Positions 70 to 11,127 of a stretch of 11,127 nt of DNA are shown one piece after another (positions within the stretch are counted from its first letter, which is position 1; each line of letters opens with the position of its first letter). The stretch is from Patescibacteria group bacterium (GTDB lineage Bacteria > Patescibacteriota > JAHJAL01). The DNA lies in contig JAHJAL010000120.1 in NCBI GenBank assembly GCA_018814055.1, forward strand, positions 1 through 11,127, written 5' to 3'. Under the pieces are notes generated by a model. It ran no database searches. It saw only the letters and a list, made by a program, of their open reading frames with translations, and had not been told where the DNA came from. A program made the translations under genes and the position numbers.

Positions 70-1763
70 ATAAAGAGACACCGCATGAGCGGGAGTGTTT
101 GGTTTGTAAGAATAAGTTTGGGATAGGGCAGGAAGATTTGAATTTGTTGAAGAAAATTATGGTGCCGGTGCCAATGGAGTGTCCCGAGTGTAATCATCGG
201 CATCGACTTTGTTTTCGGAATGAAGGGAAAATGTATAAAAGGAAATGTGATGCGACGGGCAAAGAGATAGTGTCGGTTTATTCGCCGGACAAGGCTTATA
301 AGGTGTATGAAAAAGATTATTGGCATTCGGATACGTGGGATGCTTTGGAGTGTGGGCAAGATTATAATTCAGAGAAAAGTATTTTTGAACAGGTGGGGGA
401 GTTGATGAAAAAAGTTCCCTATCCTAATCTGATGGTGACCAGTAGTGAGAACTGTGATTATGTAAATCATGGGACCAATGACAAGAATTGTTATTATGTG
501 TCGTCGGGAGTAGGTTGTGAGGATTGTATGTATGGCAGGAGTATCTGGTATTCGCAGAATTGCGTCGATTGTTTGCGGATTGATAAGAGCGTTGATTGTT
601 ATGAAAATGTGAAAGGAGTGAACAACAACAGTTGTATTTATTTGCTGGAGTCAGAGGATTGTTATGATTGTCATTTTTCTCAAAATTTGCATAATTGTCA
701 GAATTGTATTTTGTCATTCAATTTGAAAAATAAGCAATATTACATTCGGAACAAGGAAGTGTCAAAGCAAGAATTTGATAAATTCAAAAATGAATGGGAT
801 TATTATGCATGCAAAGAAGAGTTGTTGAGGGTGCGAGAGGAGTTGATAGTCAGATTTGCCGATATTAGAAATTCGGAAGATTGTACTGGTGATGAAGTGT
901 ATAATTCGAGAAATTGCCATGATTGTTTTGGTATAGAAGGTTTTGATAATTGTCGGTATTGTCTTGAGGGTATCAAATCATTGCAGGATTCGTATTATAT
1001 GTATGCTTGTGGAATAGATGCGCAGTTGCAGTATAACTCGATTGCCAGTGGGGTGAATGCGGGGCGGGCGATTGGCTGTAATGTGGTTTATCCAAATGGT
1101 CAGGACAATTATTATAGTTATTTGTGCATCTCGGTGCAGAATGTTTTTGGTTGTGTCGGTTTGAAAAAGAAACAGTACTGTGTTTTAAACAAACAATATT
1201 CACGGGAAGAATATTTTGAGCTGATAGAAAAAATCAAGCTGGATATGTTGGAGAGAGAGGAATATGGTGAGTTTTTTCCGATTGGGTTGAGTCATTTTGG
1301 GTACAATGAGACGATTGCGAATGAATTATTTCCGTTGGAAAAAGAAAAAGCACAAAAAATGGGTTTTGGGTGGAGTGATTATAATCCGGAAAGTGGTTAT
1401 GATGGTCCATGGTATGAGCCAAATGGAGATCTAAATTATTATCGGGATGAAAGCCATACGGGTGAGTTGTTGCAAGGAATTTTGAGGTGTGGGGTTACTG
1501 GTAGGCCTTTTCGAGTAGTGGGACCGGAATTGGCTTTTTATCTGAAGCTAAATATTCCCATACCAAAAAAATCGCCAGATCAGAGGTTTGCGGATAGGAT
1601 AGCATTGAGAAATCCGCGGGAATTATGGCATAGGCAGTGTATGTGTGAGGAGAGTGGGCATGGGCATGAGGGGAGATGCGAGGAGGAGTTTGAGACGACG
1701 TACGCACCTGATCGAGAAGAGAAAGTTTATTGCGAAGGGTGTTATCAGAAATCGGTAATATAA
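33..1763 (+). CDS. cysteine-rich zinc-ribbon/solenoid protein, CPR-type, copy 1 (576 aa)
   Basis: The function is unknown. I recall relatives being widespread in CPR genomes, sometimes with misleading names such as CaiB/BaiF family. It has 36 Cys in 576 residues. An N-terminal zinc ribbon (C22-x2-C25, C50-x2-C53) is followed by a decayed ribbon (C72-DATGKEI, Cys lost at 75, 93 and 96). A Cys ladder follows, with Cys at 141, 153, 165, 177, 189, 201, 213 and 225, exactly 12 residues apart. Then come a charged helical linker (about 241-275), a second less regular Cys-rich block (284-383) ending in FGCVGL...NKQYSREEY, a conserved GEFFPIGLSHFGYNET segment (412-426), and a C-terminal pair of ribbon-like motifs (C486; C536/C538/C549/C567/C570). 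There is no signal peptide or membrane segment, so it is probably cytosolic. ATG 33 is the first possible start after the in-frame TAA at 27-29; no good Shine-Dalgarno is visible. It is co-directional with its paralog 82 bases downstream. Confidence 0.9.
   Translation: MYKADQKILDQLDKETPHERECLVCKNKFGIGQEDLNLLKKIMVPVPMECPECNHRHRLCFRNEGKMYKRKCDATGKEIVSVYSPDKAYKVYEKDYWHSDTWDALECGQDYNSEKSIFEQVGELMKKVPYPNLMVTSSENCDYVNHGTNDKNCYYVSSGVGCEDCMYGRSIWYSQNCVDCLRIDKSVDCYENVKGVNNNSCIYLLESEDCYDCHFSQNLHNCQNCILSFNLKNKQYYIRNKEVSKQEFDKFKNEWDYYACKEELLRVREELIVRFADIRNSEDCTGDEVYNSRNCHDCFGIEGFDNCRYCLEGIKSLQDSYYMYACGIDAQLQYNSIASGVNAGRAIGCNVVYPNGQDNYYSYLCISVQNVFGCVGLKKKQYCVLNKQYSREEYFELIEKIKLDMLEREEYGEFFPIGLSHFGYNETIANELFPLEKEKAQKMGFGWSDYNPESGYDGPWYEPNGDLNYYRDESHTGELLQGILRCGVTGRPFRVVGPELAFYLKLNIPIPKKSPDQRFADRIALRNPRELWHRQCMCEESGHGHEGRCEEEFETTYAPDREEKVYCEGCYQKSVI
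453..707 (+). repeat. 36-base periodic Cys-codon ladder inside the first Cys-rich gene
   Basis: Cysteine codons (TGT or TGC) begin at 453, 489, 525, 561, 597, 633, 669 and 705, each exactly 36 bases apart, and most are preceded by an Asn or Asp codon. The intervening bases have diverged, so this is a protein-level repeat of eight 12-residue rungs and not a recent DNA duplication. Extra Cys codons three residues before the ladder position occur at residues 162, 210 and 222, again in 12-residue register. Confidence 0.9.
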
Positions 1764-1845: not shown

Positions 1846-3558
1846 GTGGAAAATAAAGTTTGTAAACAATGTAGTGCTGATTATGTGGTGGAGGATGAGG
1901 ATTTGGTATTTTATGATAAGATTTCGCCCGAATTTAGTGGGAAGAAATATAAAATTCCCGTACCAACGTTGTGTCCGGATTGTCGGTTGCGGCGGCGGCT
2001 TTGTTGGCGTAATTTGCGCAGTTTGTATAGAAGGAAGTCGGATAAGTCGGGACAGGATTTGTTGGCGATTTATGCGCCGAATAAGCCATATAAGGTTTGG
2101 CATGTGGCTGAGATCCAGTCGGATGATTTTGATGCATTTAAATATGGACGGGATTACGATCTGTCGCGGGGATTTTTTGATCAGTTTAATGAATTGTTTA
2201 TTGAAGTTCCAAAGGCGCATGCGTATATAAATTTTGGGGCGATGGAAAATGCGGAATTTGTGAATGGAGCGAGTGATTTGAAGAATGCATACTATAGCTT
2301 TAGTTTGAATTTTTCAGATGGAGTTTATTATAGTGATCAGGTTTACTATTCACAGGATATTTATGACTGCATGTATGTTCGGCAGAGCGAGAATTGCTTT
2401 CAGTCTGTTGAGTGCACCAAAGTTTATAATGCGTTTTATTGTAGGTCATGTAACAACTGTCGAGATATTATGTTTTCAACAGAATTGACGGGTTGTCAGG
2501 ATTGTTTTGGTTGTGTGGGTCTGCAGAACAAGCAGTATTGCATTTTCAACGAACAGAAGACCAAGGAGGAGTATGAGCGGTTCGTGGCTGGTTTTGAGTT
2601 TAAGAGGGAGAAAGTGGAGGAGGTGCAGCAGCGGGTGAAGCAAATATATCTTGGCTTGCCTCATAAGTATGCTGATAATTTGAATACTGAGAATTCGGTT
2701 GGTGATTGGTTGAAGAATACGAGAAACTGTCAAAATTGTTTTGAGATGACTGGAGCTGATAATGTAAAAAATGGATTCATCTGTTCGGCCGATTTGTCAG
2801 ATTCGCAAGATATTAGTTTTGGTTTTAACGGAGTGGAGTTGGCTTACGAGACGATGATTTTCGGTTTTGGGTCTTATGTTAATGCTTTTTGTTGGTATTG
2901 TATTGGAGGGAGGGATATATATTATTGCGCGGAATGTAGTGGAGGGACGAAAGATTGTTTTGGTTGTGTGGGCTTGCGTAATGGGGAGTATTGTATCTTG
3001 AACAAGCAGTACACGAAAGAGGAATATGAGCAGTTGGTGCCGAAGATTATCGAGAAGATGGAGGCGGATGGCGAGTGGGGGGAGTTTTTTCCGATGAGTA
3101 TTTCGCCGTTTGGCTATAACGAGACGATGGGTCAGGATTATATGCCGATGACCAAAGAGGAAGCGATTGGTGTAGGGGCTACTTGGCAGATGCAAGATTT
3201 TGGTTTGCAGTATGATGGTGAATTTTATGAGTCAAAGGATATTAGTACGTATGATCCGGAAGCGAATCCCAGGGCGCAGGGTGAGTTGGGCGAATTGTTG
3301 GCGGGAGTGTTGAAGTGTGAGGTGACTGGCAAGCCATTTCGGTTGATTTCGCAGGAGGTGGCTTTTTATATCGAGCACGGTTTACCGATTCCGACCAAGC
3401 ATCCTGATCAGAGATATAGGGAGCGATTTGAGATGGGGCGACCGCGGAAATTGTTTGATCGGCAGTGTGATAAATGTGGGAAGGAAATTAAATCGACATT
3501 TGATGAAAAAAGGGAGGAAATAGTGTATTGTGAAAGATGTTATCATGAGTTGCGGTAG
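1846..3558 (+). CDS. cysteine-rich zinc-ribbon/solenoid protein, CPR-type, copy 2 (570 aa)
   Basis: This is a co-linear paralog of the preceding gene, also of unknown function. The N-terminal ribbon is C6-x2-C9 with C43-x2-C46 in PTLCPDCRLRRR. The following TGK-type motif has lost its first Cys (RRKSDKSGQD, residues 62-71). The 12-residue ladder is kept in register at residues 136, 148, 160, 172, 184, 196, 208, 220 and 232, here filled by Ala, Ala, Val, Ile, Cys, Ala, Ile, Cys and Cys, usually after Asn or Asp. An EEY-rich helix follows (about 238-270), then a second block ending in the repeated DCFGCVGL...NKQYTKEEYE motif. The end carries CEVTGKPF (491-498), PIPTKHPDQR (514-523) and a full ribbon C541-x2-C544/C562-x2-C565. 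No signal peptide or membrane segment is seen. The start is GTG. The TAG stop lies inside a palindromic repeat. Confidence 0.9.
   Translation: MENKVCKQCSADYVVEDEDLVFYDKISPEFSGKKYKIPVPTLCPDCRLRRRLCWRNLRSLYRRKSDKSGQDLLAIYAPNKPYKVWHVAEIQSDDFDAFKYGRDYDLSRGFFDQFNELFIEVPKAHAYINFGAMENAEFVNGASDLKNAYYSFSLNFSDGVYYSDQVYYSQDIYDCMYVRQSENCFQSVECTKVYNAFYCRSCNNCRDIMFSTELTGCQDCFGCVGLQNKQYCIFNEQKTKEEYERFVAGFEFKREKVEEVQQRVKQIYLGLPHKYADNLNTENSVGDWLKNTRNCQNCFEMTGADNVKNGFICSADLSDSQDISFGFNGVELAYETMIFGFGSYVNAFCWYCIGGRDIYYCAECSGGTKDCFGCVGLRNGEYCILNKQYTKEEYEQLVPKIIEKMEADGEWGEFFPMSISPFGYNETMGQDYMPMTKEEAIGVGATWQMQDFGLQYDGEFYESKDISTYDPEANPRAQGELGELLAGVLKCEVTGKPFRLISQEVAFYIEHGLPIPTKHPDQRYRERFEMGRPRKLFDRQCDKCGKEIKSTFDEKREEIVYCERCYHELR
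2500..2577 (+). repeat. internal duplicated motif, copy A, in the second Cys-rich gene
   Basis: Residues 219-244 (DCFGCVGL..., ending KEEYE) recur at residues 370-395 with 20 of 26 positions identical and no gap. The motif closes each of the two Cys-rich blocks, so the gene looks like two solenoid-plus-helix units in tandem. Confidence 0.9.
2953..3030 (+). repeat. internal duplicated motif, copy B, in the second Cys-rich gene
   Basis: This is the second copy of the DCFGCVGL...NKQYTKEEYE motif (residues 370-395). The first paralog has an equally good copy at its residues 371-394 and a more decayed one at 223-248, which places the duplication before the two genes split. Confidence 0.9.
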
Positions 3559-3581: not shown

Positions 3582-3607
3582 ATATGAAAATATATATTTA
3601 TTTTTTT

Positions 3608-3614
3608 GAAGGGA
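3608..3614 (+). promoter_or_regulatory. ribosome binding site of the lipoprotein gene
   Basis: GAAGGGA ends 6 bases before the ATG at 3621. It therefore selects that ATG over the in-frame TTG at 3606, which overlaps the site. Confidence 0.7.
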
Positions 3615-3620
3615 ATTTAT

Positions 3621-4115
3621 ATGTTGAAGAAAATTTCGATGGGGGTGTTGGTTTTGTTGGTAGTGACTTTGGTGGGGTGTGAAGCCAATTTTAGCAAGGG
3701 AGTGAACAAGGATTTGTTGAGTGGTTTGAAGGTGGACAATGATGGTTTGGCTTATGATGAGGTGTATTTGACGGTGGATGATGAGAGGACAAGTGAAAAC
3801 ATGTTTGATATTGGGACCGAGGTTTATATGAATTTTACCGGCGTGGATTATTTCGAGGAAGTTGATGGCAAAGTTTTTCCGGGAGCGATGATGGTAGTGG
3901 CTGATAAAAACGGCAAAGAGATTTTGGAAGAGGATGATATGTTTGCGATGTATGATGAAGATGGTGTATTGCCGGAGCAAGCCTCTGAAATGTTTGTCAG
4001 TTTGCTGATTGGTGATCCGATGGTAGAGGGAGAGCAGTATACCTGGTACTCAAAAATTTGGGATAAGGTTGGTGATGGGACTATAGAAGCAACGATGGAT
4101 ATTGGGGTGAATTAA
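3621..4115 (+). CDS. small secreted lipoprotein of unknown function (164 aa)
   Basis: The N-terminus is a textbook lipoprotein signal: MLKK, a hydrophobic run (residues 5-18) and the lipobox L17-V18-G19-C20, so Cys20 should be lipidated and the protein anchored outside the cytoplasmic membrane. The mature part is acidic, has no other Cys, and is rich in short Val/Thr/Tyr stretches such as EVYLTVDD, FTGVDYFEEVDGK, FPGAMMVVADKNGK and EGEQYTWYSKIWDK. These suggest one or two beta-sandwich (Ig-like) domains. I dimly recall similar small lipoproteins in Bacteroidota but cannot name a family. The start was chosen from the GAAGGGA site at 3608-3614. It lies 62 bases after the second Cys-rich gene and is followed by a terminator, so it may be the last gene of that transcript. 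Confidence 0.85.
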   Translation: MLKKISMGVLVLLVVTLVGCEANFSKGVNKDLLSGLKVDNDGLAYDEVYLTVDDERTSENMFDIGTEVYMNFTGVDYFEEVDGKVFPGAMMVVADKNGKEILEEDDMFAMYDEDGVLPEQASEMFVSLLIGDPMVEGEQYTWYSKIWDKVGDGTIEATMDIGVN

Positions 4116-4134
4116 TTACTAATTACTAATTACT
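4114..4134. repeat. three tandem AATTACT heptamers
   Basis: Three perfect head-to-tail copies of the 7-base unit AATTACT begin inside the TAA stop of the lipoprotein gene and run into the terminator stem. Because 7 is not a multiple of 3, the tract puts TAA or TAG into all three + frames. The same heptamer recurs at 8347-8374. Confidence 0.9.
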
Positions 4135-4164
4135 AGAAGGCATCAGTTTGGTGTCTTCTTTGTT
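4135..4164 (+). terminator. intrinsic terminator after the lipoprotein gene
   Basis: AGAAGGCA (4135-4142) pairs with TGTCTTCT (4152-4159) over 8 pairs, one of them G-T, with a 9-base loop, followed by the T-rich run TTTGTT. It lies 20 bases after the lipoprotein stop. The tail is short and runs straight into the promoter of the next gene, so termination may be only partial. Confidence 0.6.
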
Positions 4165-4198: not shown

Positions 4199-4732
4199 AT
4201 GAATACGAAAAAAAAGAAATTGCCGATTCAGGGGTTCTTAGAGTATGTGGATGTTATAGATAGGAAAAATAGGGTGATAGGAAAGGTATTGTTGCACGAT
4301 ATACATGAGAAAAAGCTGCCGCATCGGACGAGTCATATTTTGATATTTAATACTAGGCGCGATAAGTTGTTTTTACAGAAAAGGGGGCCGGATGTATTTG
4401 TATACCCCGGATATTGGACTAGTAGTGCGTCTGGACATGTGGGGTCGGGTCAGTCATATCGACAGACGGCGGTGAGAGAGTTAAGAGAGGAATTGGGAAT
4501 AGAATGTGATTTGAAATATATAGGTTATTATTGGCTTGATTTGGAAGGTAACAATGAGAGAAATGCGGTTTTTGTGGGATATAGTGATGGGCCTTTTGTA
4601 TTTGAGGAAGAAGATGTTCCGGGAGGAAAGTGGTTTGATATGGGTTATTTAATAGGAAAATATCGGAAAATCAAAACTTGTCCGTTTTTTCGGGTGACAT
4701 TTGAGTATTATTTAAAGAAAGTTGAGGGTTGA
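4199..4732 (+). CDS. NUDIX hydrolase, YfcD/IPP-isomerase-like (177 aa)
   Basis: This is a predicted cytosolic Mg-dependent hydrolase of nucleoside-diphosphate-type substrates. It opens with EYVDVIDRKNRVIGK (15-29) and LPHRTSHILIFN (40-51), then LFLQKRG and PGYWTSSASGH, the layout of the YfcD and type I isopentenyl-diphosphate isomerase branch. The Nudix box starts at G79 and ends REL-REELGI (93-101), with E94, E97 and E98 all present. Position 85, normally Glu, is Gln. The catalytic Cys of isopentenyl-diphosphate isomerases (in the VCGH motif) is Ser78 here, so isomerase activity is unlikely and a hydrolase is the better call; the substrate is unknown. ATG 4199 is preceded by GGTGAGG (4188-4194) and an extended -10 promoter. 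The stop is TGA, and the unrecognised gene at 4805 is probably co-transcribed. Confidence 0.88.
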   Translation: MNTKKKKLPIQGFLEYVDVIDRKNRVIGKVLLHDIHEKKLPHRTSHILIFNTRRDKLFLQKRGPDVFVYPGYWTSSASGHVGSGQSYRQTAVRELREELGIECDLKYIGYYWLDLEGNNERNAVFVGYSDGPFVFEEEDVPGGKWFDMGYLIGKYRKIKTCPFFRVTFEYYLKKVEG

Positions 4733-4804
4733 AAATGTTCTTGTGAAGTGGTATTTTGGTGATAGAGTTTTCGTTTTTAACTTTTTGGTTTAACCGAATT
4801 GAGT

Positions 4805-5320
4805 ATGGATAAGATTGAAGGCGCTGATAGGCGGGATGAAACGTTTGATGATATTGGTTCAAAAAAGAGGGTAGAATTGAAGATATTGCTTGGGCCGGGT
4901 CAAGTGGAGAAATTGAATTTTTCTTATAACGAAGACAGGACCAAGTATTGGCTTGATTTGCTGCGTTATGGCAAGGGTTGTTGTGATGTGGGGATTTGTA
5001 AAGATTTGGTAACTTTGGTTGGGAATTCGGAGGATGGTTATAATCTTGTAAAAAAAGAGTTTAAAGCTATTGCCGAACTTGAAATTGTTGATCGGTATCA
5101 GTGTCGTAGGGAAATTAATTATCCGTTTGAGTTAGTGTGCTGGGATAAGATTGCAAAATATAGCGAAATTAAAGAAAGAGATTTGGGGTTATGGAACAAA
5201 GAAGATGCTGATATTGTATTATCTAATTATTTTTTGAAAGATTATTTTCGTCTTGAGAGTGATAAGGATATACCTAATCAAGTATCTTTGATGTTGACAA
5301 ATAAACGTGAGTGGAATTAA
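4805..5320 (+). CDS. uncharacterised protein (171 aa)
   Basis: I do not recognise this protein. It is soluble-looking and charged, with no signal peptide or membrane segment. Visible features are a basic/acidic N-terminal 20 residues, a KYWLDLLRYGKG stretch followed by a Cys cluster (GCCDVGIC), an LVKKEFKAIAELEIVDRY helix, and a C-terminal half with several Tyr/Phe-Phe/Leu pairs. Its four-Cys content does not form a clear zinc motif. ATG 4805 is preferred; a TTG six bases upstream (4799) is in frame and would add two residues, and neither has a clear Shine-Dalgarno. It follows the NUDIX gene by 72 bases, with only a small GGTT-T-AACC palindrome (4787-4795) between, and ends at the bidirectional terminator. 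The open length and + strand composition like its neighbours support a real gene. Confidence 0.7.
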   Translation: MDKIEGADRRDETFDDIGSKKRVELKILLGPGQVEKLNFSYNEDRTKYWLDLLRYGKGCCDVGICKDLVTLVGNSEDGYNLVKKEFKAIAELEIVDRYQCRREINYPFELVCWDKIAKYSEIKERDLGLWNKEDADIVLSNYFLKDYFRLESDKDIPNQVSLMLTNKREWN

Positions 5321-5353
5321 AAAAGAAGCAAGTGTACGATGCTTCTTTTTTAA
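5317..5353. terminator. bidirectional intrinsic terminator between convergent genes
   Basis: TTAAAAAAGAAGCA (5317-5330) and TGCTTCTTTTTTAA (5340-5353) form a perfect 14-pair stem with a 9-base loop. The A-run on the left and T-run on the right give a U-tract to transcripts arriving from either side. It sits between the stop of the + strand gene (5320) and the stop of the - strand phosphorylase (5380). Confidence 0.88.
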
Positions 5354-5379
5354 AATTTTGTTTCTTGTTTGAAAAAAAT

Positions 5380-7065
5380 CTATTTTGACCAGGCTTGGTC
5401 CCAGTACTCGTGGCACATGCGGTGGGAGTTGAAGTACGTGCCGTTTTTGATGATACAGTTTTTCATGATTTCCAGCCAATGAGTTTGGTTGTTGTAAAAG
5501 CTGGGGACTATATGTTTTTCCAGTTTTTCGTATACAGTGTTGGCGTGTTTTTGTTTGAGTTCCTCGAGAGTGTATTGGTCCATTTTTTCTTCCGGTTCGT
5601 TGATAGCCCAGCCGGTGACGTCTTCCTCCCAGCCCTCTTCCCACCAGCCGTCAAGGGTTGATAGCGAGGGGACGCCGTTGATGGCCGCTTTCATGCCGGA
5701 AGTGCCGGAGGCTTCCTGGCCGGGAATGGGGTTGTTGAGCCACAGGTCGGCGCCTTGGGTCATGAGTTTGGCGACTTTGATATTGTAGTTTTCCAGGTAG
5801 GCAATTTTGATATCATTTTTGAAGTCGTTTTTGATTTGGTTGATGCGTTTGATAAAGGCCTGGCCTTCCATGTCGCTGGGATGGGCTTTGCCGGCAAAGA
5901 TAATTTGGACTGGGCGGATGTTGTTGATTTGAGCGATTTTATCGGGGGTGAGCAAGATAAGGTCGGGACGTTTGTAGGCAGTGATGCGGCGGCCAAAACA
6001 GATGGTAAAAAAGTCATTGTCCATGCCGACATTGGCGAGCTGATTGGTGAAATCGATCAATTTCTTTTTGTTGATGTAGTGGGCTTCGTTGATTTCCTGG
6101 TGAGAAGCGTCTTTGATGTTGGTCAGGGTGTCTGGTTTGACGCGCCAGTCGGGGGAGTATTTATCAAACAGATTGGCAAAGGGTGGGGAAACCCAGGTGG
6201 GGGGATGGATGCCATTGGTGATGCCTTTGATGTCAAATCCGGGGAACATTTTGCGGGCGACAAGAGTGTGTTTTTGGCTGACTGCGTTTATAAATCCGGA
6301 GGAATGGAGAGCGAGTTGAGTCATCTGTAGTGCATTGTTTTGGATAACTTTCTCGGGAATATTGTCGGTATAGTGTTTGAGAAAGCGCTGAGCCATGTCG
6401 ATGGGGAATTGGTCATGGCCGGCAGCGACAGGAGTGTGAGTAGTGAATATGCAATATGGTTTTGTATTTTCGCATGTCATGCTTTTGGAATTACACAAGT
6501 CGTGGTTTAGTTTGAGTGTCAAAAGAGCGGAATGGCCTTCGTTCATGTGATATTTTTTGATATTATTGTATCCGAGTTTTTTGAGAATTTCATAACCGCC
6601 GATTCCCAAGACCATTTCCTGGCTGAGTCGGTATTCTAAATCACCGCCTTTGTAAAGATGGCTGGTGAGGTGTCGGTCAAATTCGTTGTTGGAAGCGATG
6701 TTGGAATCAAGGAAATAAACAGGGATTTCGAAGCCGGTGGCACCTTTGATGATGTATTGCCATACCTGAATTTTAACGTCACGGTCTTGAATTTTGATAA
6801 TGGCTTGGGCGGGAGTAAGTTCGAGGTAGTCATTGATGGCCCAATTGGTTGGCTGAGCGACTTGATTGCCTTCCCGGTCGATTTGTTGGAAGAAATAACC
6901 ATGCTCATTGATCATAGTGATGGCAACCAGTGGGATTTCCAGGTCGGCACAGGATTTGATGGTGTCGCCGGCCAAAACGCCCAGGCCACCGGAATAGGTG
7001 GGGATGGAATTTCTGATGCCGATTTCCATGGAGAAATAGGCGATATTGTATTTTGAGTGGTCCAT
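5380..7065 (-). CDS. glgP: alpha-glucan (glycogen/maltodextrin) phosphorylase, short type (561 aa)
   Basis: The enzyme cleaves alpha-1,4-glucans with phosphate, releasing glucose-1-phosphate, in the cytosol. It belongs to glycosyltransferase family 35, in the short branch of about 550-600 residues found in archaea, Thermotoga and many uncultivated bacteria, so it looks full length. Conserved stretches run in order: FSMEIG (11-16), YSGGLGVLAGD (24-34), MNEGHSA (174-180), THTPVAAGHD (209-218), GITNGIHPPTW (281-291), FGRRITAYKRPDL (357-369), FAGKAHP (390-396) and NNPIPGQEASGTSGMKA (444-460). K459 in SGMK is the expected pyridoxal-phosphate lysine, followed by TLDGWWEEG. It starts at ATG 7065 with no Shine-Dalgarno but with heptamer repeats just upstream. 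It is last in a four-gene - strand cluster, 76 bases after the glycosyltransferase, and ends at the bidirectional terminator. No other glycogen gene is present in the window. Confidence 0.95.
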   Translation of the reverse strand: MDHSKYNIAYFSMEIGIRNSIPTYSGGLGVLAGDTIKSCADLEIPLVAITMINEHGYFFQQIDREGNQVAQPTNWAINDYLELTPAQAIIKIQDRDVKIQVWQYIIKGATGFEIPVYFLDSNIASNNEFDRHLTSHLYKGGDLEYRLSQEMVLGIGGYEILKKLGYNNIKKYHMNEGHSALLTLKLNHDLCNSKSMTCENTKPYCIFTTHTPVAAGHDQFPIDMAQRFLKHYTDNIPEKVIQNNALQMTQLALHSSGFINAVSQKHTLVARKMFPGFDIKGITNGIHPPTWVSPPFANLFDKYSPDWRVKPDTLTNIKDASHQEINEAHYINKKKLIDFTNQLANVGMDNDFFTICFGRRITAYKRPDLILLTPDKIAQINNIRPVQIIFAGKAHPSDMEGQAFIKRINQIKNDFKNDIKIAYLENYNIKVAKLMTQGADLWLNNPIPGQEASGTSGMKAAINGVPSLSTLDGWWEEGWEEDVTGWAINEPEEKMDQYTLEELKQKHANTVYEKLEKHIVPSFYNNQTHWLEIMKNCIIKNGTYFNSHRMCHEYWDQAWSK

Positions 7066-7072
7066 GATTAAA

Positions 7073-7142
7073 AATGAATAATGAATAATGAATAATGAAT
7101 AATGAATAATTAGTTATCTATTATTCATTTTTCATTATTTAT
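7073..7142. repeat. five tandem AATGAAT heptamers plus fold-back partner
   Basis: Five perfect copies of AATGAAT fill 7073-7107. The last copies can fold back on an AT-only partner: AATGAATAAT (7101-7110) pairs perfectly with ATTATTCATT (7120-7129) around a 9-base loop. Pairing continues outward to 7088/7142 with one mismatch and one G-T. The tract fills the 76-base gap between the glycosyltransferase stop and the phosphorylase ATG. In the mRNA it is a U/A-rich leader without a Shine-Dalgarno. Confidence 0.9.
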
Positions 7143-8338
7143 TATTTTCTGATGATGTTGGTAACCCGGCCGGTAGAGTCGAAGTGATAGGTGGTGTTGG
7201 CCCAGAGGAAGTTGCGGCAAAAGAGAGTTTTGAGGTAGGCGATAACTTGGGTAACGCGTAGCAGGGGGGTGAGAATAATTAGTTTGATGGGGTGGTTGAT
7301 TTTGCCAAGAGAGTTATAGAGTAAGGAATTGATAGCTTCAAATAAGAATAAGGTGATAGGGATAAATGTGAGCAATAAAAATTCGTGACGGTTGTCGAAA
7401 ATATATATAATGATGAGCAAGGGAACCAGACTGTAAATTAGAATGTATGTCCAGAACATGGTGTTGCTTATAATATACCACATTCGTTTGTGGTAAAGTT
7501 TGAGGTACATCAGTTGGCGGATGTACCAATTTATAAAACTGAAAGTGTTATTGATCGGCTTGGTGTTTAATCCCATGGCAGTGGGGACAAAGGTGGTGCG
7601 GTGGCGATTATCAGAGAGAAGTTTGGATAAACTGGTGTCGTCGACAACGTTGGTTGACCAGTATTTTTTGACTTTGAGCTCATTGAAAGTTTTTTGTTTG
7701 ATGGCGATTGATCCGCCCCACAGGAGAGGAAATTTAAAGAAGGAAGAACTGAAGCAGTAAAGGGAGAGAGTGTATATGTTGGCAAAGACAAAAGAAAGCT
7801 CACCAAAGTTATCTTGGTGAGATATAGGCCAAAAGAAGGTGGAGGTGGCGGTGATTTTGGGGTTTGAAAGGGGCAAAATCAATTCACTTAACCAGTTTTG
7901 ACCATTGATGACATCGTCATCGGCGAATACCAAAACTTCGCTGTTGGGAGAGTGCCGAACGGCGGAGATGAGATTTTGGTTTTTTTGGCAGCAAGTGGAG
8001 GAGAGTTGGGAGGTGACTAGTTTGATACGAGGGTATTTGCTTTGGTAGGGTTTGATGAGGTTGTATGCAGGGTCTTGTTGGTTCTCGACGGTAAAAATAA
8101 TATTGTAGTCAGGGTAGTTTTGATTGAGTAGGGCATGAATATTTTGGTTGAATTGGTGGGGAATTCCTTTGACGGGAATAATGATGGTGCAGGTTGGCTG
8201 GTAGTCTGGATCAAATTTAGGCCGGATTTTTTGAGGATATAAATATTTGAAATAAAAAATAGTATATATACTGGCGGAGAAGTTGAGAATTAGTAGAAAA
8301 AAAGCCAGGAAGCTTAGAATGTAGGTGAGGGTGATCAT
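7142..8338 (-). CDS. membrane-anchored family 2/21-type glycosyltransferase (398 aa)
   Basis: This is a predicted inverting sugar transferase that works at the cytoplasmic face of the membrane, with an architecture like ceramide glucosyltransferase/HpnI-type enzymes. One N-terminal membrane helix (about 3-30) precedes a GT-A catalytic domain: TIIIPVKG (51-58), then FADDDV (138-143) with the Asp triad that binds the metal and sugar nucleotide, WGGSIAIK (207-214), and VVDDTSLSKLL (231-241) supplying the second acidic motif. The Q/RxxRW motif typical of this group is not intact; the nearest stretch is WYIRQLMYLKLY (271-282). Three or four C-terminal membrane helices follow (about 287-312, 318-340, 350-370). 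Acceptor and donor are unknown; a glycolipid or envelope glycan is the likely product. ATG 8338 lacks a Shine-Dalgarno. It lies between the ABC permeases and the phosphorylase, all on the - strand. Confidence 0.85.
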   Translation of the reverse strand: MITLTYILSFLAFFLLILNFSASIYTIFYFKYLYPQKIRPKFDPDYQPTCTIIIPVKGIPHQFNQNIHALLNQNYPDYNIIFTVENQQDPAYNLIKPYQSKYPRIKLVTSQLSSTCCQKNQNLISAVRHSPNSEVLVFADDDVINGQNWLSELILPLSNPKITATSTFFWPISHQDNFGELSFVFANIYTLSLYCFSSSFFKFPLLWGGSIAIKQKTFNELKVKKYWSTNVVDDTSLSKLLSDNRHRTTFVPTAMGLNTKPINNTFSFINWYIRQLMYLKLYHKRMWYIISNTMFWTYILIYSLVPLLIIIYIFDNRHEFLLLTFIPITLFLFEAINSLLYNSLGKINHPIKLIILTPLLRVTQVIAYLKTLFCRNFLWANTTYHFDSTGRVTNIIRK

Positions 8339-8346
8339 TATATAAA

Positions 8347-8429
8347 AATTACTAATTACTGATTACGAATTACTAGAATTTGGAGATGGCTGGTGTATTC
8401 TGGTCTCTAGTAATTTGTAATCAGTAAAT
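8347..8429. repeat. AATTACT heptamers forming an inverted repeat
   Basis: Four heptamers (AATTACT, AATTACT, GATTACG, AATTACT) cover 8347-8374. The segment 8354-8376 is the reverse complement of 8407-8429 at 21 of 23 positions, one exception being a G-T pair, with a 30-base spacer. This occupies most of the 119-base gap between the permease stop (8458) and the glycosyltransferase ATG (8338). No other gene or promoter is supported there. Confidence 0.85.
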
Positions 8430-8457
8430 ATGGTTCAAGGCAAAAATTTAGGTTGCA

Positions 8458-9690
8458 TTATTCATACCGCAGGGCTTCAATCGGGTCGAGTTTGGAGGCT
8501 TGGTTGGCGGGGTAGAGACCGAAAACGAGGCCAAAAATTGATGATACTCCCAGAGAGAGTAAAATTGAACCAAGGGTTATTTCAGGGTCGAAGGTTGAAA
8601 ATACTTTTACCAGGATGGTAACGATCAGGCCGAGCAGTAAACCGATTAAACCCCCGAGAATAGTGAGCATGACGGCCTCGATGACAAATTGAGTCAGGAT
8701 ATCCATACGAGTAGCGCCAAGGGCTTTGCGTAAGCCGATTTCTCGGGTGCGTTCTTTGACGGAAACGAGCATGATGTTCATAATGCCGATGCCGCCGACA
8801 AGCAATGAGATAGCAGCAATGGCGCCGAGTAGTATGGAGAGAATATCAGTGATATCAGATAAAATTTCCAAGGCCTGTTCGGTATCGTATATGGTGAAAT
8901 CATCTTTGGAGGGATCATCGATATCGTGGCGGTCGCGGAGGACGGTGGCAATTTCTTCTTTGGCAATGGGAATGTTTTTTTTGTCAATGGTGGTGGCATA
9001 GATGGTAAATAGGTAATCAATTCCCAGAAGCTTCTTTTGAGCGGTAGTGACGGGGAGGTAGATGAATTTATCCTTGTCTTGTCCGTCTTCAATCCCTTTG
9101 GCTTCGGTGACGCCGATGATACGAAAATTTAGTTGATTGACTTTGATAATTTGTCCAATCGGATCTTGGTTGGGAAAGAGGAGGTTGGCAATTTTTGGCC
9201 CAACAATGGCATTGTTGGAAACACCATCGATATCGGTTTCTTCAAAGTTGGCTCCTTGGGTAATTTTGGTGTTGCGGATAGTGAAGTAGTTGGCATCGGT
9301 ACCGATAATGATGGCTTCGATTTCGTAATAAGGAGAGGTAGCGTTGAATTGGGCTCTGATTTCGGGGGAGGTGAGTTCGACATGGTTGGTGATTGGTGAA
9401 GTGGCGATGGCCTGGGAGTCGCGGTAGGTAAGTGAGGTAATGGTTTGGCCTTGTTGGGATGGTGGTGCTGAGAATTCACTATCGGTTTTGCCGGGCAGGA
9501 TGGCAATCAGGTTGGTACCGCCAAGGTTGGCAACTTGATCAACGATATAATTTTCGACTCCTTGGCCAAGAGCCATCAAGGTGACGACCGAGAAGATACC
9601 AATTATAATGCCGAGGGTGGTGAGTCCGGCTCGGAGTTTGTTTTTGCCAATGGCGGTGAGGGCAATTTTTATTAGTGATAAAAGATCCAA
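8458..9690 (-). CDS. MacB/FtsX-type ABC transporter permease, copy A (410 aa)
   Basis: This is a membrane subunit of a MacB-family ABC system, which couples ATP hydrolysis in the cytosol to mechanical movement of an outside domain for export or release of a substrate. The topology is standard: TM1 at about 22-44 (LGIIIGIFSVVTLMALG), a large external domain (about 45-280, with PNQDPIGQIIKVN and FIYLPVTTAQ typical of the MacB periplasmic core), then TM2 (283-309), TM3 (337-361) and TM4 (371-394). The cytosolic coupling segment ERTREIGLRKALGATR (313-328) and the C-terminal PANQASKLDPIEALRYE are family hallmarks, and the length is usual. The start is TTG at 9690; no ATG or GTG is available before TM1 and no Shine-Dalgarno is seen. 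It follows its paralog across a 161-base gap holding a large inverted repeat. No ATPase subunit lies in the window. Confidence 0.93.
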   Translation of the reverse strand: MDLLSLIKIALTAIGKNKLRAGLTTLGIIIGIFSVVTLMALGQGVENYIVDQVANLGGTNLIAILPGKTDSEFSAPPSQQGQTITSLTYRDSQAIATSPITNHVELTSPEIRAQFNATSPYYEIEAIIIGTDANYFTIRNTKITQGANFEETDIDGVSNNAIVGPKIANLLFPNQDPIGQIIKVNQLNFRIIGVTEAKGIEDGQDKDKFIYLPVTTAQKKLLGIDYLFTIYATTIDKKNIPIAKEEIATVLRDRHDIDDPSKDDFTIYDTEQALEILSDITDILSILLGAIAAISLLVGGIGIMNIMLVSVKERTREIGLRKALGATRMDILTQFVIEAVMLTILGGLIGLLLGLIVTILVKVFSTFDPEITLGSILLSLGVSSIFGLVFGLYPANQASKLDPIEALRYE

Positions 9691-9715
9691 GGTAAGTGAA
9701 TAATAAATAATTGGT

Positions 9716-9846
9716 AATGAATAATATTTTATTTTTTTGGATTATTTTTTGTCATACTTATTTTCAAACGGCCTACTATCGCTCACGGCAAAGTTTGAAA
9801 ATAAGTATGACAAAAAATAATCCAAAAAAATAAAATATTATTCATT
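9716..9846. repeat. perfect 54-base inverted repeat with 23-base loop (fold-back/MITE-like)
   Basis: The left arm 9716-9769 and right arm 9793-9846 are exact reverse complements over all 54 bases; I checked this base by base. The 23-base spacer (9770-9792) is the only GC-rich part and can add a small GCC/GGC stem. The inner ends read GTCATACTTATTTTCAAAC; the outer ends are AT-rich and begin AATGAATAATATTTT. The element ends 5 bases from the stop of the upstream permease (9852). There is no open reading frame inside and no convincing target duplication at the edges. It does not end in a U-tract in the direction of transcription, so it does not look like a plain terminator. A small non-autonomous mobile element or a strong RNA hairpin are the main readings. 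Confidence 0.93.
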
Positions 9847-9851
9847 GTTAA

Positions 9852-11087
9852 TTACTGAAAGCGGAGGGCTTCGATGGGGTTTAGTTTGGAGGCTTGGTTG
9901 GCGGGGTAGAAACCGAAAACGATGCCGGCCAGTGTGGAAACGCCGGTAGCCAATAAGATTGAATCGAGAGTAACAGCGGTGCGAAGGGTAGTGAATTGGG
10001 TGATAGCGGTAGAGATACCAAGTCCGATTAAGATGCCGATTATGCCGCCGATTAGGGTAATAATAACTGATTCAGTAATAAATTGGCTGAGGATATCAGT
10101 TCGTTTGGCACCAATGGCTTTTCTGAGGCCGATTTCTTTGGTTCTTTCGGTGACCGAGACGAGCATGATATTCATAATACCGATACCGCCGACCAGTAAC
10201 GAGATGGCGGCGATGGCGGCCAGAAAAGACGCCATGGCGTCGGTAATGGCGTTGATGGTTTCTAAAGCATCCTGGGAATTCATAACGGTGAAGTCGCTTT
10301 TTTCTCCTTCATCGATATGATGGAGATCGCGCAGGATTAACTTGGCTTGTTCGGCGGCGAGGGAAGTGTTGTTGTCAGAATCAGCGGCAATGATAATATT
10401 ACTGACGTAGTCAATGCCCAATAGTAGTTTTTGTCCGGTAGTGACGGGTATATAAATCAGATCGTCAAAATTTACACCTAATTGACCTATTCCTTTGGAT
10501 TCGGTGATGCCAATTATTTTGAAAGTAATGTTATCGATTTTGATGTTTTCGCCGATCGGGTCAGTATTTGGAAAAAGATCTTTGGCAACATCCGGGGCAA
10601 GAATGGCTACTCGGGCAAGTGAGTCTACTTCTCGGGCCTCAAACATGCGGCCACTGGTAATCTCGGTATTGCGAATAGAGAAATATGAAGGGGTAGTGCC
10701 GAAAAATTGGGTTAGTTTTTCGTTGTAGCTGGAAGTGGCCACTATTTGGCTGGAAATGGTGGCAGTAGTGTTGGCGATATTGGGGGCCTGGGGATTGTCT
10801 TTTAGTTTTTGAGCATCTTCGTATTTGAGCGTAGTAATAGTGATGCCGGCTAAAGTTGGAGAGAAGCCGTAGCTTTCATCATCGGGAGTACCCGGCATGA
10901 TTTGGACCAGATTACTGCCAAATGATTGGACGGTGTCGAGGATAAAGTTTTGAGCACCAACACCGGCGGCCATAAGAATAATGACGGAAGATATACCGAT
11001 GACAATTCCCAAAATACTTAAAAAAGATCGGGTTTTGTTGACCAAAAGGGCTTTGATAGCGAGTTTTAGGGTAATGGAAAAAGGCAC
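9852..11087 (-). CDS. MacB/FtsX-type ABC transporter permease, copy B (411 aa)
   Basis: This paralog of the downstream permease has the same layout: TM1 at about 22-44 (ILGIVIGISSVIILMAAG), an external domain to about 282 (with FPNTDPIGENIKID and LIYIPVTTGQK), TM2 (287-310), TM3 (339-363) and TM4 (373-396). The coupling segment is ERTKEIGLRKAIGAKR, and it ends PANQASKLNPIEALRFQ. The two genes share a 28-base identical DNA stretch near their 3' ends (8489-8516 and 9883-9910), so they are an old tandem duplication with a strongly conserved C-terminal part and a diverged external part. They may form a heterodimer or two separate pumps. GTG 11087 is the best start; no Shine-Dalgarno is seen and AT-rich heptamers begin 4 bases upstream. 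It is the first gene of the - strand cluster in the window. A partner ATPase and membrane-fusion protein could lie beyond 11127. Confidence 0.93.
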   Translation of the reverse strand: MPFSITLKLAIKALLVNKTRSFLSILGIVIGISSVIILMAAGVGAQNFILDTVQSFGSNLVQIMPGTPDDESYGFSPTLAGITITTLKYEDAQKLKDNPQAPNIANTTATISSQIVATSSYNEKLTQFFGTTPSYFSIRNTEITSGRMFEAREVDSLARVAILAPDVAKDLFPNTDPIGENIKIDNITFKIIGITESKGIGQLGVNFDDLIYIPVTTGQKLLLGIDYVSNIIIAADSDNNTSLAAEQAKLILRDLHHIDEGEKSDFTVMNSQDALETINAITDAMASFLAAIAAISLLVGGIGIMNIMLVSVTERTKEIGLRKAIGAKRTDILSQFITESVIITLIGGIIGILIGLGISTAITQFTTLRTAVTLDSILLATGVSTLAGIVFGFYPANQASKLNPIEALRFQ

Positions 11088-11090
11088 AAG

Positions 11091-11127
11091 AATAATTAAT
11101 AATGAATAATTAATAATGAATAATAAA
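11091..11127. repeat. 14-base tandem repeat built of two heptamers, at the right edge
   Basis: AATAATTAATAATG occurs twice in a row (11091-11104 and 11105-11118), followed by AATAATAAA at the window edge. Each 14-mer is two heptamers, AATAATT plus AATAATG; the second is a rotation of the AATGAAT unit seen at 7073-7107. It lies directly upstream of the GTG of permease copy B. The tract may continue past the window. Confidence 0.85.

Follow-up and report, generated by a model that had tools for sequence, protein, structure and literature searches.

The DNA analysed here, contig JAHJAL010000120.1 of a Patescibacteria group bacterium (assembly GCA_018814055.1; 11,127 nucleotides, hereafter the window), carries two adjacent paralogous genes, gene 1 and gene 2, whose products belong to a large family of proteins with Cys-rich β-solenoids. 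Our analyses indicate that members share slowly varying zinc (Zn) modules, that the outer face of their solenoids marks the individual gene copy and that the family is co-inherited with one VirD4-like ATPase. Taken together, these features read best as a repertoire of adaptors, with copy-specific solenoids held between constant Zn modules, an interpretation that we regard as evenly poised between right and wrong.

A cysteine ladder in a 12-residue solenoid

Eight Cys residues of the 576-residue gene 1 protein (141, 153, 165, 177, 189, 201, 213 and 225; nucleotides 453-707) are spaced by exactly 12 residues, as had been noticed in an earlier reading of the sequence alone. Seven of the eight follow Asn or Asp, the preference also claimed at that time, and Cys 201 follows Ser. 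This regularity is far beyond chance. When the 36 Cys of the protein were shuffled 3000 times, the longest run of equal spacing (spacings of 5-30) had six members and occurred once, and when the 13 Cys of residues 129-260 were placed at random 3000 times, it had five members, in 19 cases. The 570-residue gene 2 protein keeps the register at positions 136, 148 and so on to 232 (nucleotides 2251-2541), occupied by Ala, Ala, Val, Ile, Cys, Ala, Ile, Cys and Cys. The replacement of Cys by small residues at a fixed register, from which the sequence-only reading had predicted a tight β-solenoid, is thus supported.

AlphaFold2 (AF2) models agree with that prediction and contain repeated 12-residue turns, with moderate confidence in mid-solenoid. 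The model of the gene 1 protein has a mean predicted local distance difference test score (pLDDT) of 90.7 and a predicted template modelling score (pTM) of 0.89; the gene 2 solenoid modelled alone reached a pLDDT of 81.4 (57-81 over five models) and a pTM of 0.80. The spacing does not vary freely among homologues, the eight-turn stretch measuring 98-103 residues in 239/239 rows of two alignments. Left-handed β-helix hexapeptide proteins, which together with pentapeptide-repeat proteins are among the closest known systems, have 18-residue turns instead.

The earlier proposal of a single inward residue per turn did not hold, as family sequence statistics and the models point to four (phases 0, 3, 6 and 9). 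All 12 Cys in residues 141-225 of the gene 1 protein (141, 153, 162, 165, 177, 180, 189, 201, 210, 213, 222 and 225) fall in one class modulo 3, i.e. on every third residue, and the ladder is therefore one of four inward columns. Complete ladders are rare, with 8/8 Cys in 5 of 388 family members (those remaining of 417 after 80% identity and length filters). The mean share of Cys is 59% at the eight ladder positions and 44% at the inward positions of the first solenoid. Sequences and models together indicate that Cys fills the core as a small residue and stacks along the columns.

The geometry resembles that of the Tenebrio molitor antifreeze protein TmAFP (PDB 1EZG; Pfam PF02420), which also has 12-residue turns with an inward residue at every third position, an analogy that the first reading had rightly drawn. 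The sequence match is insignificant (E 1.5 with 1ezg), and the PF02420 model matched 2/130 members, with a best E of 0.78. In TmAFP, inward Cys six residues apart form an in-turn disulfide, and a TxT face binds ice. The family differs in avoiding Cys pairs at i,i+6, in being bacterial and in placing a pair of solenoids between Zn modules in each protein. A role in ice binding, suggested by the common turn length and four-corner core, was rejected because the proteins lack the TxT face (2/3104 turns have TxT flanking phase 0). In-turn disulfides are disfavoured as well, and neither the pair of Zn modules nor the ATPase partner would have a role in ice binding; the probability of this function is next to nil.

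Domain architecture

The family layout indicated by profile comparisons and models is a Zn module, two successive units each made of a 12-residue β-solenoid and a helical cap, and a second Zn module (Table 1). The second solenoid and the Zn modules, like the arrays, the linked ATPase and the constant/variable pattern described below, go beyond the sequence-only reading. In hhalign comparisons, homology was found between the N- and C-terminal Zn modules (probability 99.5) and between the first and second solenoids with their caps (99.9), while module-solenoid controls gave 0.1 and 1.2. The C-terminal module has two pairs of Cys that could bind Zn, formed by residues 536, 549, 567 and 570, which are kept in 99-100% of members; spacing is variable in the first pair. 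We consider this structural and family assignment very likely to be correct.

Table 1. Features of the two solenoid-family genes in the window
Feature	Position	Strand	Basis
Gene 1, 576 aa	33..1763	+	ORF, homologues, AF2 model
Gene 1 N-terminal Zn module, residues 20-93	90..311	+	Cys 22, 25, 50 and 53 conserved in 95-99% of members
Gene 1 first β-solenoid, eight 12-residue turns and ends, residues 129-240	417..752	+	AF2 model, sequence statistics
Gene 1 8-Cys ladder, residues 141-225	453..707	+	One of four inward columns
Gene 1 helical cap after first solenoid, residues 241-285	753..887	+	AF2 model, hhalign
Gene 1 second solenoid, residues 286-386	888..1190	+	hhalign homology to first solenoid, AF2 model
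Gene 1 C-terminal Zn module, residues 484-574	1482..1754	+	hhalign homology to N-terminal module; conserved Cys
Gene 2, 570 aa, GTG start	1846..3558	+	ORF, homologues
Gene 2 N-terminal Zn module, residues 4-86	1855..2103	+	hhalign
Gene 2 first solenoid, residues 122-235	2209..2550	+	Shared 12-residue register, AF2 model
Gene 2 second solenoid, residues 286-386	2701..3003	+	hhalign
Gene 2 C-terminal Zn module, residues 491-568	3316..3549	+	Weak PF23477/TIGR04272 match, below curated cut-offs

The terminal modules are of the kind described by PF13451 (zf_Tbcl), PF23477 and TIGR04272 (CxxC-x17-CxxC), to which they match weakly, but each end of the family proteins retains a different half of the Cys. 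The C-terminal module of gene 2 scores 22.2 bits with PF23477 (cut-off 27) and 17.7 with TIGR04272 (cut-off 36), and that of the homologue P0085 scores 26.1 against a cut-off of 36. Precomputed annotations place PF23477 on two listed matches of gene 2 and one listed match of gene 1.

Thiols in the core

A function of the thiols themselves, as a disulfide spine, a stack of metal clusters or a redox sink, would fit the abundance of inward Cys (~13 per first solenoid), their stacking in columns (2438 i,i+12 pairs against 2178 expected) and the presence of at least one complete four-Cys turn in 259/388 members, in 208 of them at 219/222/225/228. Position 219 is nevertheless Leu in both window proteins, and the number of Cys per solenoid ranges from 4 to 21. 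Pairs across the turn (i,i+6), the geometry of the Tenebrio disulfides, are rarer than expected (1628 against 1890; mean phi -0.158 over 22 pairs), and the Cys counts of the first solenoid have no even/odd bias (187 even, 201 odd). In-turn disulfides are therefore disfavoured, as a matter of sequence statistics rather than chemistry, and we rejected cross-core disulfides on the same two grounds. Metal clusters or a redox sink fit poorly with inward columns that mostly vary freely. In addition, both proteins start with a Zn module and have no export signal apparent by eye (no dedicated signal-peptide program was used), and a reducing cytosol is therefore their likely location. All in all, a thiol-based function appears very unlikely. 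Of the first reading, the solenoid, its register and the Tenebrio-like geometry thus stand, whereas the turn with one inward residue does not, and the disulfide spine, metal clusters and redox sink are not supported.

Constant and variable parts among gene copies

We compared 214 genes from 55 genomes, with all loci mapped to genomes. Among pairs with Zn-module identities of 0.65-0.80, first solenoids more than 60% identical were found in 42/58 cross-genome pairs and in 0/10 same-genome pairs; irrespective of module identity, 1/690 same-genome pairs exceeded that value. The contrast is also seen at phases 4, 5, 7 and 8, where identities are 23, 17, 9 and 20% between copies in one genome and 68, 71, 58 and 53% in 61 cross-genome pairs with module identities of at least 0.65. 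Similarly, 10/19 genes of genome G134 form reciprocal best pairs with genes in the arrays of genome G250, with up to 82% identity, while the nearest copies within G134 mostly have 39-51% identity.

These comparisons indicate that the proteins share their Zn modules, which vary slowly, and that the outer solenoid face (phases 4-8) marks the gene copy, differing within a genome and being kept between like copies across genomes. We consider this constant/variable reading probable. Variation of a fast-evolving antigen or of host range was rejected, as like copies retain their solenoids across genomes.

Linked genes

Clustering of the neighbours at 121 loci, which partly overlap and are not independent, placed two families at the top, TrmB regulators (38 distinct sequences at 34 loci, directly adjacent in 34/38) and a VirD4-like ATPase (21 distinct sequences at 19 loci, directly adjacent in 17/21). 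The TrmB genes are often transcribed divergently from the solenoid genes. They lie within 700 bp of family genes in 25/80 cases, against 1.5 expected, a count based on 157 family places, including 5 of the 25 of the window's genome (G000). Generic VirD4-like ATPases are present in all 40 genomes surveyed, and the linkage is therefore limited to a specific subtype. The latter is found at full length in 18/20 positive genomes, with scores of at least 617 bits, and in 0/34 negative ones, where the best score is 498 bits at 37% identity. Thus, gene neighbourhoods and genome distribution indicate that the family travels with one soluble VirD4/TraG-like ATPase, often together with a divergent TrmB gene.

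In four genomes without solenoid genes (loci L132-L135), a generic VirD4-like ATPase ends in a Zn ribbon resembling CxxC-x17-CxxC, and the preceding gene looks like its membrane-anchored front half.

The linked ATPase shares its motor domain with the VirD4/TraG/TrwB coupling proteins of type IV secretion. Of two members scanned, one (L107) passes the Pfam cut-offs for PF02534, PF10412 and PF01935, and the other (L116) those for PF01935, PF10412 and PF12696. Matches to TraD, TrwB and CedD are weak, as are those to HerA and mads in PADLOC, and the ATPase scores far below every NCBIfam coupling-protein cut-off. Unlike the coupling proteins, the linked ATPase has solenoid genes as neighbours, and a hydropathy scan of nine members detected no transmembrane segment or N-terminal anchor, the highest 19-residue mean (2.07) lying inside the motor domain.

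This linkage raises the alternative that the solenoid proteins are effectors, which an apparatus similar to type IV secretion systems would deliver to a host or prey cell, with the ATPase as dedicated coupling protein. The expanded copy number and the episymbiotic life of Patescibacteria are in line with that idea. However, host-targeted proteins would be expected to change fast, whereas solenoid faces are conserved between like copies of different genomes; the ATPase is devoid of a predicted membrane anchor and, in the arrays viewed, is not beside other secretion genes recognized by eye; and no secretion signal is known. We therefore think the effector hypothesis unlikely.

Alternatively, the proteins might serve in regulation or DNA uptake, their basic Zn modules (mean net charges +4.6 and +5.3) holding DNA or RNA for the solenoids to read. 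The resemblance of the ATPase to DNA-translocating coupling proteins (PF02534 and PF10412, weakly CedD) is compatible with such a role, but the solenoids are mildly acidic (mean net charges -4.3 and -3.9) and their outer, variable face is rich in Asn, Asp, Tyr and Phe rather than Arg or Lys, which makes nucleic-acid binding quite unlikely.

A putative adaptor repertoire

In the adaptor interpretation, the solenoids of each copy would hold one particular ligand or partner, and the Zn modules and caps common to all copies would dock on a shared partner, with the linked ATPase as the most likely candidate. The ATPase would then move or remodel the cargo, whether protein or DNA and whether or not for export, and TrmB-type regulators would switch single copies. 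Docking on the ATPase is a tentative proposal, somewhat less likely than not. More doubtful is a complete system without described counterpart, with up to about twenty paralogous adaptors, each with one fixed, conserved target, a single dedicated VirD4-like ATPase and one-by-one switching by adjacent TrmB regulators.

Several points weigh against the adaptor interpretation. Only 10 same-genome pairs have high module identity. For the window proteins, the 17 rows of relatives compared include no true counterpart from another genome, and the closest rows have the between-copy pattern, with solenoids less alike than modules; the constant/variable result therefore rests on other members. In the window's genome, no TrmB scored above the cut-off, and the ATPase gene lies beside another copy (contig C151), not beside the window's pair. 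In genome G045, solenoid genes are present, but the best ATPase match scores lower (567 bits) and lies on a different contig; in genome G162, the only match is partial (489 bits), at a distance of 0.95 kb. The pLDDT of the gene 1 model is only 69-89 in the middles of both solenoids. Finally, docking on the ATPase is deduced from gene neighbourhood alone.

If the adaptor interpretation is correct, the repertoire would be a bacterial constant/variable recognition set that picks cargo for import, export or remodelling. The family comprises thousands of clustered proteins without a Pfam or NCBIfam model of their own and, in some of the smallest bacterial genomes, takes up several percent of the DNA. 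What Patescibacteria use this DNA for is a long-standing question, on which the constant/variable pattern and the single co-inherited ATPase give a testable lead. The solenoid also appears to bring the beetle antifreeze geometry to bacterial proteins, with thiols rather than disulfides in the core.

Family size and distribution

In protein searches, 2635/7885 candidates for gene 1 and 7736/7998 scored candidates for gene 2 were homologous at E<=1e-3. The best 120 matches were listed for each window protein; alignment A1 was built from 119 of 120 listed matches, leaving out P0109, and alignment A3 from 130 of 204 solenoid pieces. In assembled-genome contigs, 573/580 of the pattern matches listed encode a relative. 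Titles of the 77 loci kept name Patescibacteria groups in 64 cases (Peregrinibacteria, Peribacteria, Gracilibacteria, Berkelbacteria, Abawacabacteria, Staskawiczbacteria and Patescibacteria), 'bacterium' in 11, WS2 in one and Nitrospirota in one. The last of these (L061, JAUVQE010000003.1) contains the gene for the linked ATPase in addition to solenoid genes, has two neighbour families in common with genome G283 (Peribacteria) and is probably a mis-binned or mis-titled Patescibacteria contig. Among viral contigs, 1/151 pattern matches encodes a relative, itself a fragment, and a phage or mobile origin was rejected. Neither window protein had a match in a PADLOC search.

An even sample of the phylum contained matches in 48/286 genomes, and the family is therefore patchy. 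Those of 21 genomes, including the window's, were below E 1e-80, and most of the other genomes match the C-terminal Zn module only; because no more than four candidates were scored per genome, these counts of matches do not give copy numbers. Within the 925 kb of the window's genome (173 contigs, 82% completeness), there are 25 family matches; 15 are nearly full length in a single open frame, and a few are interrupted or truncated at contig ends. Another 21 genomes have between 3 and 22 matches each, some being pieces. Long head-to-tail arrays occur in G134 (contig C1, 60.6-84.4 and 106.5-120.3 kb), G250 (C8, 112.8-144.3 kb) and G258 (C15, 57.0-70.4 kb).

A search with a solenoid-only profile found 23 short proteins, and the solenoid with its cap therefore exists as a separate unit. 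In three of them, P0253 (from a Nannocystaceae, Myxococcota assembly), P0255 and P0256, every Cys (21/21; 20/20) is in one class modulo 3, and the same cap motif stands at the end; theirs are the most regular Cys triplet ladders that we saw. Stand-alone Zn-module proteins of 92-129 residues match the family profile in genomes without solenoid genes (10 loci viewed).

Surroundings of the two genes

The 82 bp that separate gene 1 from gene 2 (1764-1845) hold a palindromic repeat found at seven places in the genome, including this one, and one of these places (C135:715-792) adjoins other solenoid genes. The predicted RNA fold of the repeat is no better than those of shuffled sequences (z -1.2). 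AT-rich tandem repeats with a period of 7 (or 14) bases lie in intergenic gaps at 4113-4135, 7073-7110, 7114-7147, 8347-8375 and 11090-11124. Downstream of gene 2, a small protein of 169 residues without Pfam family (3606-4115) has a lipoprotein-like start, as judged by eye. The remaining neighbours (4199-11087) code for a NUDIX protein, a carbohydrate phosphorylase, a family-2 glycosyltransferase and two tandem MacB/FtsX-type permeases.
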